IMG/VR virus record: IMGVR_UViG_3300043543_000028
Coordinates: 1 to 28,351 of that record
Length of the DNA stretch: 28,351 nt
Strand: one strand, 5' to 3'
From: a virus
Below are positions 1,044-27,620 of the stretch, piece after piece; position 1 is the first letter of the stretch; the number at the start of each line of letters is the position of its first letter. Made by a program: the position numbers and the translations under genes. Below the pieces are notes generated by a model. It was not told the origin of the DNA, made no database searches, and saw only the letters and a list, made by a program, of their open reading frames with translations.

Positions 1044-1072
1044 TTGACAGTCCTTTGCGGCATGGGTAGATA
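1044..1072 (+). promoter_or_regulatory. Candidate host sigma70-type promoter for the capsid gene
   Basis: A perfect -35 box TTGACA (1044-1049) is separated by exactly 17 bp from TAGATA (1067-1072), which keeps the T-A-x-A core of a -10 box. An A-tract lies just upstream at 1034-1039. Transcription would begin near 1079, about 160 bases before the capsid ATG. This is the only long gap (206 bp) in the structural block, so a dedicated promoter for the most abundant virion protein makes sense. It is inferred from sequence alone. Confidence 0.65.
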
Positions 1073-1088
1073 CACCCTGCCGCAAAGG
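1052..1088. promoter_or_regulatory. Inverted repeat embracing the -10 box (operator or RNA hairpin)
   Basis: Perfect 11-bp arms CCTTTGCGGCA (1052-1062) and TGCCGCAAAGG (1078-1088) flank the -10 region. GGG (1064-1066) and CCC (1075-1077) extend the stem after a one-base bulge, leaving TAGATACA as the loop. There is no downstream T-run, so it is not a standard terminator. A transcript starting near 1079 would contain only the second arm, so for that promoter the repeat would act as DNA (operator). Read-through RNA from the scaffold gene would contain the whole hairpin. Confidence 0.7.
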
Positions 1089-1239
1089 GTCAAGGCTAGT
1101 TCTGCGCCCGTCATCGGCTCTGGGCTACCCGGCCGTCGCAAGAAAAGTGCGGTCGGATGCGACCGGCAGGGGCGGACACCGTAGCAACTGCGAAGCTCGC
1201 GAGCGGCGCGGGTTGAACACGTTGCTAAGGAGCTAAGAA
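1079..1239 (+). promoter_or_regulatory. Structured 5' leader of the capsid mRNA
   Basis: The gap before the capsid gene holds no plausible ORF but several nested inverted repeats. One hairpin has arms CGGTCG (1150-1155) and CGACCG (1160-1165). A 10-bp palindrome GCTCGCGAGC lies at 1195-1204. A long-range stem pairs TAGCAAC (1182-1188) with GTTGCTA (1221-1227). The last arm abuts and shares one base with the Shine-Dalgarno AAGGAG (1227-1232), so folding could affect ribosome access. I do not recognise a known riboswitch or leader class. Confidence 0.45.
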
Positions 1240-6711: not shown

Positions 6712-8892
6712 ATGCCTAGGCCAGTCCGGGACATACCGCCTAGCCTTTCGGCCGTAGGCGACGCAAGTCGGGCCTACGGCCGGGTTGACAAGGGTGCTGA
6801 TTGGCTGGCGCGGGGGAACGCTGCCATCAAGCGGGGGCTGGATTCTCTCGCCGATCTGGCGGCGCAGCGGTTGCAGCGCGTCCGAGAGTTGGAGGACGAG
6901 GTTTCGCTACAGCGCGCCGACGCGGACTTCCGGCTTCGCCTCGGGGAAGCCGTTCGCAACCTTGACCCGGCCGCCGAAGATTATCAGCAGCAGGTGGCGG
7001 ACGCCTTCAACAGCGTCTTGGAAGCGGCGCGGCAGGACAACGCCTTCCCCGGCAACCGGGTGGCTGAGCGGTTCGCCGCTCGGGCGGAGTCCATCCGCAC
7101 TTCCACGCTCTTGCAGGCGGCCGACAACCGGGAGCGAGCCGTTGTCGGACTGGCGCGGCAGTCCGCGCAGGATGAAATCAATCGCGCGGCGGCGGCCGTC
7201 GCGTCCGGCGCGGACTACAACACTGTCACGACCTCCGCCATGGAAAGGCTCTCGGGCATTCTGGGGCGGATGGACACGCTGGAACGCCAACAGATTGAAC
7301 GGAACCTCCGCGAAAGCGTCGGCACGTCCTACGCTCGGGCGCTGATCGGCCGCCGGGACTTCCGGGGGGCTGAAGCCGCGCTCCGGGACCTGGGCGGGCA
7401 GGGGGTGCTGACGCCGACTGCCGTGAACGCCTTGCGCGCCGGGCTGGAACAGGAACGCCGCCAAGCCGCCGGAGAAGCGCGGGCGGAAGCCGCTGCGCGG
7501 TTCCAGATGGCTACCATCGCCATTGGCATGTTCTCCGACGAAGCGCAACAGATGACCCCCGAGGAAGCGCGGGAACAGGCCGCGCGGATGCAGCCGCAGA
7601 TTGACGCGGCGATTGCGGCGGCGGGCGGGATGAACAGCCCTCGGGGGATGATGCTGGCCCGTTCCTGGGAGCGCGCGGTCGCGCGGGCCAGCAACAGGTA
7701 TGTCCTAGAGTTCAACAGCATCGCTTCCCGGCTTGAGATGGGCGAAGAGCTTTCGGTCAGGGATCAGCGGCGCTTTGTCGAAATCCAGGGCATGCGGGCG
7801 GCGCAGTCGGCGGAGGTGCCCCCCGACGCCACGCCGGAACAGGCGCGCAGCCTGCGCGAGGCGGCAGCCGAGGAAGCGCGGCATAGGACGACCCTGTTTC
7901 TGGCCGCCCGGCAGAACCGGCAGCCGATCCAGATTCTCGCCGATGAGGCGGCGCAGGCGACTTCGCCGGAACAGATTGCGCGGCTTGTGGATGCGATCCG
8001 GGTCATCACTCAAAGCAACCCGGGCATGGGAGAGGCGAACCCGACTGTCCGCGCCATGTTCGCCGCGAACCCGGCGCTGGAATCCGCGTATCGGACGGCG
8101 CAAAGCCTTGGCGTTCCCGTGACCGGGACCAACGTCGCCGGTCTTTATGCTAGGCTTCCCCGGATCGAGCCGGATGCGGCGGAGAGGCTTGAGCGTGGCT
8201 TTGATACTCGGTATTCGCTCTCGGGCAACGCGGCGGCGGATACCCGGCGCGCGGTTGACCGCGCCCTGTCGGCCGCCGGTATCAGCAGCCCGGACGAAGG
8301 CACTCGCATGAACGTGTTGAGCCGGGCAAGGGAGATCGCCCGGCGTGCGGGGGTTGACCCGGAGGTTGCCCTGAGGCAGGCGGCGGAGGGCTACTCGCGT
8401 TCAACCGTGCCGCAAGCCATGTTTTCCACCTCCGGCTGGACCGGCCAGCCGCCCCGCTTGCCTGCTGAACAGTCTCCCCTGACGTATGTCCCACCCAACT
8501 ACCGGGAGCGGTTCGGCCCGGAGACTATTTCGGGCGCGGCGCGCGAGGCCCTGGAAGCCGCCGGACGCAGCGCCTTGCGCTCGCGGGGGATGCCGGATAA
8601 CATGGAGTTTGCGGTCGTGCCGAGGGTCTATCAGCAGGGCGGACGGCCGATGATGAGCCTTTCCGTTCAGCTGGAAAACGGCGCGACGATCAACATCATT
8701 GACGCCGAAACCGGCTTGATACGCATGTTTGACTTGAGCGACGAAAGCACTTGGCGCGACTTCTTCCGGCTTACTGATGAGCGCAGGCGTGATCTTGAGC
8801 GACGCTACGGTGATCGTAGGTCCGGGCGCAGTAGAGGCTCCATGATGTTCGGGGTGGAAGAGTTGTTTTCAACCGGCGAGTCCGAGGAATAA
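6712..8892 (+). CDS. Internal core/ejection protein (T7 gp15-like)
   Basis: The 726-aa product compares well with T7 gp15 (747 aa), lies between the gp14-like and gp16-like genes, and is strongly helical: long Ala/Arg/Glu/Gln runs from residue about 25 to 480. The last quarter is more mixed, with PNYRERFGPETISGAAREAL followed by a beta-like stretch around SLSVQLENGATINIID. gp15 builds the periplasmic ejection tube together with gp16 in T7. I see no enzyme motif. The ATG at 6712 follows the previous stop by 11 bases, with a G-rich Shine-Dalgarno-like run (AGGGGG) just upstream. The assignment depends on synteny and size more than on sequence identity. Confidence 0.75.
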   Translation: MPRPVRDIPPSLSAVGDASRAYGRVDKGADWLARGNAAIKRGLDSLADLAAQRLQRVRELEDEVSLQRADADFRLRLGEAVRNLDPAAEDYQQQVADAFNSVLEAARQDNAFPGNRVAERFAARAESIRTSTLLQAADNRERAVVGLARQSAQDEINRAAAAVASGADYNTVTTSAMERLSGILGRMDTLERQQIERNLRESVGTSYARALIGRRDFRGAEAALRDLGGQGVLTPTAVNALRAGLEQERRQAAGEARAEAAARFQMATIAIGMFSDEAQQMTPEEAREQAARMQPQIDAAIAAAGGMNSPRGMMLARSWERAVARASNRYVLEFNSIASRLEMGEELSVRDQRRFVEIQGMRAAQSAEVPPDATPEQARSLREAAAEEARHRTTLFLAARQNRQPIQILADEAAQATSPEQIARLVDAIRVITQSNPGMGEANPTVRAMFAANPALESAYRTAQSLGVPVTGTNVAGLYARLPRIEPDAAERLERGFDTRYSLSGNAAADTRRAVDRALSAAGISSPDEGTRMNVLSRAREIARRAGVDPEVALRQAAEGYSRSTVPQAMFSTSGWTGQPPRLPAEQSPLTYVPPNYRERFGPETISGAAREALEAAGRSALRSRGMPDNMEFAVVPRVYQQGGRPMMSLSVQLENGATINIIDAETGLIRMFDLSDESTWRDFFRLTDERRRDLERRYGDRRSGRSRGSMMFGVEELFSTGESEE

Positions 8893-16357: not shown

Positions 16358-16828
16358 ATGAGCAACATCATGACGTTTCGCGCCAGTGTTACGCGGCGCT
16401 ACAATCTCGGAGACTACCAGCACGTGGAAGGGACGGCCGAGGTGGCCGGTCCCGTTCCGGAGGGGCAGACCCCCGAGGAGGTCATTGCCGAGGCACAGGC
16501 GATGCTTGTGCGGCGGCTGACCAAAGAGGTCCTGGTAGGCCACGCGGCGGCCCCGGCACCCGCCCCGGCACCCGCCCCGGCACCTGCCCCGGCACCTGCC
16601 CCGGCACCTGCCCCGGCACCTGCCCCGGCACCTGCCCCGGCACCTGCCCCGGCACCTGCCCCGGCGGCCGATCTGCGGGTCAAGCTCAAGGCGGCTATTG
16701 TCGCCAACCCGCACCTGATCCCGGTCATGCAATCGTTCCTGCATGAGCGCGGGGCACGCGGGCTGCAAAGCGCGCCGGAGGCTCTGCTTCCCGAGCTTGC
16801 GCAGGTGATGGGAGTTGAGGTGGCATGA
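16358..16828 (+). CDS. Protein with N-terminal phage domain and long Ala-Pro linker
   Basis: The 156-aa product has three parts. Residues 1-60 hold a small alpha/beta segment (TFRASVTRRYNLGDYQHVEG and a helix rich in Glu/Ala), resembling a domain often found next to phage recombination genes. Residues about 64-104 are an almost pure Ala-Pro linker. Residues about 105-156 form a helical tail (DLRVKLKAAIVANPHLIPVM and onward). The Shine-Dalgarno AAAGGAGG (16340-16347) lies 10 nt before ATG 16358. The stop overlaps the next start (ATGA at 16825), coupling it to the DUF2800 nuclease. A partner or tether role for the nuclease/SSB pair is plausible, but no catalytic function can be named. Confidence 0.72.
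   Translation: MSNIMTFRASVTRRYNLGDYQHVEGTAEVAGPVPEGQTPEEVIAEAQAMLVRRLTKEVLVGHAAAPAPAPAPAPAPAPAPAPAPAPAPAPAPAPAPAPAPAPAADLRVKLKAAIVANPHLIPVMQSFLHERGARGLQSAPEALLPELAQVMGVEVA
16550..16657 (+). repeat. Nine tandem 12-bp units encoding Ala-Pro-Ala-Pro
   Basis: Nine 12-bp copies run from 16550. The first two end CCC and the next seven are identical units ending CCT, before the array degenerates at 16658. The unit (GCCCCGGCACCT) keeps the reading frame, so slippage changes only the linker length. The seven identical copies point to recent expansion. Confidence 0.9.
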
Positions 16829-27560: not shown

Positions 27561-27620
27561 GGGCTTTGGCGTCACGGGCTTTGGCGTCACGGGCTTTGGC
27601 GTCACGGGCTTTGGCGTTAT
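27561..27620 (+). repeat. Four tandem 15-bp units
   Basis: Three perfect copies of GGGCTTTGGCGTCAC (27561-27575, 27576-27590, 27591-27605) and one diverged copy (27606-27620) lie in non-coding DNA between converging genes. They could be iteron-like protein sites, but this is unproven. The frames across them give low-complexity peptides that do not look like real proteins. Confidence 0.85.

Follow-up and report, generated by a model that had tools for sequence, protein, structure and literature searches.

Hairpins that overlap promoters of phage T7 are known to be cleaved by RNase III. The stems at two of these promoters, phi13 and phi6.5, lie at the known RNase III sites R13 and R6.5, both of which were reportedly described as such by Dunn and Studier in 1983. 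In phage N4, a hairpin lies within the promoters of the virion RNA polymerase, near the start site. When the T7 start regions were folded, phi13 was found inside a 19-position imperfect stem with arms at -40 to -22 and -12 to +6 (none of 200 shuffles was as good) and phi6.5 inside a 10-position stem with arms at -30 to -21 and +6 to +15 (7 of 200 shuffles were as good), whereas the stem at phi3.8 was almost entirely transcribed. Of the 10 RNase III sites of T7, 6 are located in intergenic regions that also contain a promoter (PMC9135205). A preliminary description of the locus analyzed here, in which an inverted repeat surrounds the -10 box of a capsid promoter, had named no comparable element known from phages; that statement is incorrect, as phi13 and phi6.5 share its geometry.

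The window, meaning the whole stretch of DNA that was analyzed, is the 28,351-base IMG/VR virus record IMGVR_UViG_3300043543_000028, which is classed as linear. It carries podovirus genes for a scaffold/protease-like protein, the major capsid protein, tail proteins, a helicase, and a PolA-type polymerase. The scaffold/protease-like capsid assembly protein is encoded on the plus strand at 164 to 1033 (phrog_3742, E = 2e-34; phrog_458 protease, E = 2e-10), the position at which relatives have a gene annotated as "putative protease" or "capsid assembly protein," and this gene is the presumed source of read-through RNA. The major capsid gene follows on the same strand at 1240 to 2151 (phrog_3437; PF19821, E = 1e-54), and the gap of 206 bases between the two genes contains both the promoter and the inverted repeat. 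A search of the 28-kb record for a single-subunit RNA polymerase (PF00940) found none, a weak negative given that the record may be incomplete and that a control search was also without a match; the gene for such an enzyme has been reported absent from phage MEP301 (PMC8024684). Neither blastn of the region against cultured phages nor a search of host genome contigs with the capsid profile and the leader pattern gave a match, and no convincing copy of the arms or the promoter was seen in the window outside the site itself. Repeats of other kinds were seen as low-complexity Pro/Ala repeats at the N terminus of the scaffold-like protein (220 to 300), as an Ala-Pro repeat at 16540 to 16660 in the open reading frame at 16358 to 16828, and as three copies of a short tandem repeat with 15-nt spacing and the core CTTTGGCGTCA (27564 to 27604).

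By its -35/-10 form, the capsid promoter is of the sigma70 type. The -35 hexamer, TTGACA, lies on the plus strand at 1044 to 1049 and is separated by a 17-bp spacer from the -10 hexamer, TAGATA, at 1067 to 1072. An A-tract resembling an UP element is found directly 5' of the -35 hexamer (1035 to 1040) and is variable among relatives, with A-runs of other lengths in L001, L002, and L006 and none in L004. A -10 hexamer without T at position -7 is usual in Alphaproteobacteria (PMC8407463), and TAGATA would suit an alphaproteobacterial host; the host may belong to another group. The left arm of the repeat, CCTTTGCGGCA, occupies 1052 to 1062 within the spacer and pairs at 11 of 11 positions with the right arm, TGCCGCAAAGG, at 1078 to 1088. 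The right arm lies across the predicted transcription start at 1079, approximately 7 nt past the -10 hexamer, from whose position the start is inferred. Inside the arms, GGG at 1064 to 1066 can pair with CCC at 1075 to 1077, which gives an extended repeat of 14 nt (93%) in which T 1063 is a bulge or mismatch and the -10 hexamer is in the loop. The promoter and the repeat centered on its -10 box, as laid out in the preliminary description, were confirmed to the letter. Outside the part described there, TTGAC at 1044 to 1048 could pair with GTCAA at 1089 to 1093 over a 3-nt bulge; this outer pairing was not retained in L002 and L004 to L006. The left arm with its extension (1052 to 1066) is upstream of the -10 hexamer and thus outside any RNA begun at approximately 1079, which supports the proposal that such a transcript would lack the first arm and that read-through RNA would carry both, the start being predicted from the -10 box.

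When folded as RNA, positions 1030 to 1105 gave -32.6 kcal/mol (z = -3.9), a value equaled by none of 200 shuffles, and only 0.14% of shuffled 300-nt upstream regions contained a perfect repeat of this length. Across the 28-kb window there were two perfect repeats of at least 11 bp with loops of 3 to 16 nt, compared to zero or one in each of 15 shuffles, so a single repeat of this length per 28 kb is only mildly unusual. The second, a perfect 11-bp repeat at 6749 to 6782, is intragenic and indicates that chance alone can produce an isolated case. Together with the lack of the repeat in several relatives, it is what speaks for the repeat being a chance event or a relic without function, an explanation that we consider highly improbable in view of the enrichment, the repeated occurrence with different arms, and the compensatory changes reported below. 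The significance of the repeat comes from its position in the core promoter and from its conservation in relatives.

Eight IMG/VR loci have capsid proteins 88 to 96% identical to that of the window, and the site is complete in six of these, giving seven sequences with the window included. The promoter and the repeat were kept in all six (capsids 92 to 96% identical), with TTGAC and GTARAT present in 7 of 7 sequences and TGCCGCAAA of the right arm invariant in 8 of 8. Loss of the repeat in close relatives, which the preliminary description had named as evidence against its proposal, was thus not seen, and the covariation of the arms that it had suggested looking for was found. Across the alignment, 92% of 105 cells were paired, 4 pairs were changed on both sides, and 7 pairs were invariant. 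The changes include a C-G to T-A replacement at pair 10/44, at the end of an arm, and a series of inner triplet pairs, GGG/CCC, GGA/TCC, GAA/TTC, and AAA/TTT. The covariation score was reached by 7 of 500 shuffles. These results support pairing between the arms, at a strength that we judge to be modest; several of the mismatched cells fit minus-strand wobble rather than plus-strand wobble. One of the relatives, L006, appears in its positions 1 to 142 to be unrelated 5' of the promoter to the end of the scaffold gene of the others and retains the promoter, hairpin, and leader. The core TTTGCGGC/GCCGCAAA was nearly constant within the window clade. Such constancy would be in line with a DNA operator, in which a dimeric phage or host protein bound to the palindrome across the -10 box would repress or time the capsid promoter.

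A wider comparison was made with a sister group of cultured and uncultured phages with capsids approximately 24 to 33% identical to that of the window, plus their relatives. Their layout is like that of the window, with a scaffold gene, a gap of mostly 100 to 200 nt, and a capsid gene, and many of the gaps contain a promoter of the form TTTACA or TGTACA, approximately 17 bp, and TANNNT. A TAATTATCCCG/AATAATCCCG motif recurs at the stop codon of the scaffold gene or just past it, shortly 5' of the -35 hexamer (L017, L051, L055, L058, and others). Many of the capsid promoters are covered in their core by repeats of 8 to 14 bp with arms that are unrelated in sequence and with centers on the -10 hexamer, the spacer, or the -35 hexamer. 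On or near the -10 hexamer, the arms are CGGGTCTACGT in L017, CAGGTCCACTGT in L051, TCGAGGTCACTCT in L054, ACGGGCCCGTCTC in L055 (with one G.U), AACGTAATCACCAT in L056, CTTGTAACGCCCAC in L058, GGACCTAACAGTGG in L031 (with one G.U), and GCTCAGGCCA in L165, and the stem of the cultured OM43 phage MEP301 (L154), with three G.U pairs, is likewise centered on its -10 box. Repeats on or near the -35 hexamer were found in L168, L169, L171, L172, L174, L211, and L196, with loops such as GTGTTTACAT. In most versions, the spacer forms one arm or part of one. The repeat was absent from six sister phages with similar capsids (L052, L057, L059, L061, L063, and L064) and is therefore not essential.

With an ungapped score applied to 96 promoter regions, a set that includes related loci, such as seven from the window clade, 25 regions scored at least 9 and 16 scored at least 11, compared to 0.9% and 0.2% of shuffled regions, respectively. 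In the region preceding the capsid gene, the density of perfect repeats of at least 11 bp was 13-fold that of the remaining sequence of these loci (p = 2e-8, with two window-clade loci included and loci treated as independent, kinship ignored). In nearly all of the high-scoring cases, the repeat overlapped the core promoter, as an operator might, and in E. coli promoter regions, an association of inverted repeats with neighboring transcription factor sites has been reported (PMC6060812). However, no half-site was common to sister phages even where their capsids were 66 to 82% identical, the repeat center moved by approximately 24 bp, from the -10 to the -35 hexamer, and the repeats were perfect over 11 to 14 bp and spanned 27 to 39 bp, which is long for a single dimer. 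An unsystematic look through the 28-kb window also identified no repressor gene. The operator half of the original proposal, under which one element would act both on DNA and in RNA, was weakened by these observations, and half-sites common within the window clade proved to be unrelated in the sister phages. Since the arms differ completely in their letters, shape is what is kept, and a fixed repressor operator is disfavored because the letters change, the shape is conserved, and the center shifts. We regard an operator as unlikely. Free letters and a moving center would be odd for an operator but natural where a hairpin has to fit around hexamers that are fixed, and this pattern favors the hairpin.

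Shape kept with letters free, placed over the core promoter, is also what would be expected of a supercoil-sensitive promoter, in which extrusion of a cruciform under negative supercoiling would block RNA polymerase until supercoiling drops. Several of the sister repeats, with arms of 11 to 14 bp and loops of 4 to 6 nt, have the dimensions of classic extruding repeats, and one promoter is known to be repressed by extrusion (Horwitz and Loeb 1988, as cited in PMC6060812). The window version is G+C rich with a loop of 9 to 15 nt, which makes it a poor cruciform former, and given this loop size and composition its extrusion seems unlikely. DNA would moreover show no strand preference among mismatches, whereas single mismatches in the stems were G.T in 28 cases and A.C in 11 (p = 0.009), the G.T cases being G.U in plus-strand RNA. 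When homologous cases were collapsed by hand, the counts were approximately 13 versus 7, which is not significant, so the bias is only a hint, of the kind expected if pairing of the plus-strand RNA matters. A comparison of plus- and minus-strand folding energies as a means of telling RNA from DNA was dropped, as loci without the repeat differed as well. Overall, we hold a cruciform switch to be improbable for this promoter.

The hairpin does not have the form of an intrinsic terminator, because there is no U-run 3' of the stem on the plus strand, where GGGTCAAGG follows; a terminator scan was empty there, and the stems of the sister phages also have no U-tract after them. On the minus strand, window positions 1096 to 1035 have a terminator-like CAGG and T-run after the hairpin; this T-run is not conserved, being absent in L003 to L005 and in the sister phages. 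Searches against Rfam matched no family in the window at the curated score, gave nothing credible for 1030 to 1260 at a lax threshold, and gave no match in 26 related loci.

Directly 3' of the right arm is the leader of the capsid gene (1089 to 1239, plus strand), in which blocks shared by eight sequences are identical or nearly so and which is the most conserved noncoding stretch seen in the window clade. It is probably a structured RNA; the fold of the window leader as a single sequence was unremarkable (z = +0.6). In the L039 to L050 subgroup, the capsid leader (e.g., L043:1884-2003), also undescribed, has 21 predicted pairs, 8 of them with compensatory changes, and includes a hairpin that pairs CCTTTCC with GGAAAGG, so that the 3' strand of one stem is a Shine-Dalgarno-like GAAAGG; this hairpin is possibly a translation switch for the capsid. 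A covariance model (R1) of the leader of a subgroup other than the window clade did not match the window leader, and a wider alignment of sister leaders yielded one short consensus helix only, because the alignment was poor. Two motifs, UGGRCAAC-[stem]-UCC and GUCC-GNAA-GGRCAACUC, occur in the sister leaders (L017, L051 to L064, and L161 to L226), and both resemble permuted copies of a single GG/CC helix with an ACAA-like bulge. The leader adjoining the hairpin is highly conserved and undescribed, and no open paper was found that reports such an element, or a leader RNA of the capsid gene, from these phages. With an invariant right arm next to this leader and a left arm that varies, the role of the right arm could be confined to that of the leader RNA's 5' end, and the left arm would allow read-through RNA to hide that end, giving a switch between two leader states. 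In the versions centered on the -35 hexamer, however, both arms are 5' of the start and promoter-made RNA would contain neither, and right arms are wholly different between sister phages; we give such a switch a slim chance.

The explanation that we prefer, and that we hold at close to an even chance of being correct, is that the capsid promoter is nested within an intercistronic RNA hairpin through which the read-through message is processed or insulated. If transcription reads through from the scaffold gene, as we assume, the resulting RNA would contain both arms and would fold, and RNA started at the promoter, with its 5' end in or past the right arm, would not form the full stem. The full stem would thus be specific to read-through RNA because promoter RNA lacks the left arm (or both arms, in the -35-centered forms). 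The most likely role of the hairpin would be to divide the read-through message in two: it may be processed by host RNase III or a similar double-strand nuclease, and/or it may insulate the capsid leader from what lies 5' of it and protect the 3' end of the scaffold message, and capsid mRNAs of similar form would come from both sources, read-through and promoter. Because T7 does likewise, host RNase III would be the most likely actor, a suggestion that we offer as doubtful; stems of 8 to 14 bp are short for this enzyme, though as many as 19 pairs could form in the window, and argue for caution. Phages without their own RNA polymerase still need far more capsid than scaffold protein, and a hairpin-wrapped promoter, if real, would be a compact means of setting apart the fates of the scaffold and capsid messages. 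The arms are free in sequence, so a clean test by compensatory changes is possible. We tentatively extend this reading, with rather less confidence than we have in the nested hairpin itself, to HTVC010P-type podoviruses and MEP301, which may repeatedly have evolved sequence-free hairpins in a core host-type capsid promoter. These would be a class of promoters that mark read-through, with spacer and stem arm formed from one set of bases and an undescribed leader RNA of the capsid gene downstream, and they would help to set the ratio of scaffold to capsid.

Compared to described elements, the window site has a dyad over the -10 box in common with palindromic phage repressor operators and differs from them in its long span, its moving center, and arms that are not shared by relatives. 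It has an inverted repeat at a promoter, as does the promoter of Horwitz and Loeb (1988), but the latter, an E. coli promoter construct, is switched by supercoiling at the level of the DNA, whereas the window version has a large loop and a G+C-rich stem. The N4 promoters have short stems with 3-nt loops and are used by a giant virion polymerase, whereas here the stem is at least 11 bp, free in sequence, and in a host-type promoter; the stem and loop sizes of the window do not fit the N4 type, and its arm sequence is not conserved. The closest likeness is to phi13 and phi6.5 of T7, which are also located between neighboring late genes and in which, as in the window, the promoter is inside an intercistronic hairpin whose 5' arm precedes the start site, a predicted one in the window, and the whole stem would be present only in read-through RNA. 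The T7 promoters are served by the phage's own single-subunit RNA polymerase, whereas the window promoter has host-type -35 and -10 hexamers at 17-bp spacing, and the stems of the window and sister phages, known here from sequence, are mostly shorter than those of T7. By this analogy, we judge the window element to be a host-promoter version of the phi13 and phi6.5 arrangement, which, if true, would mean that a T7 design also operates at host-type promoters of abundant aquatic phages.
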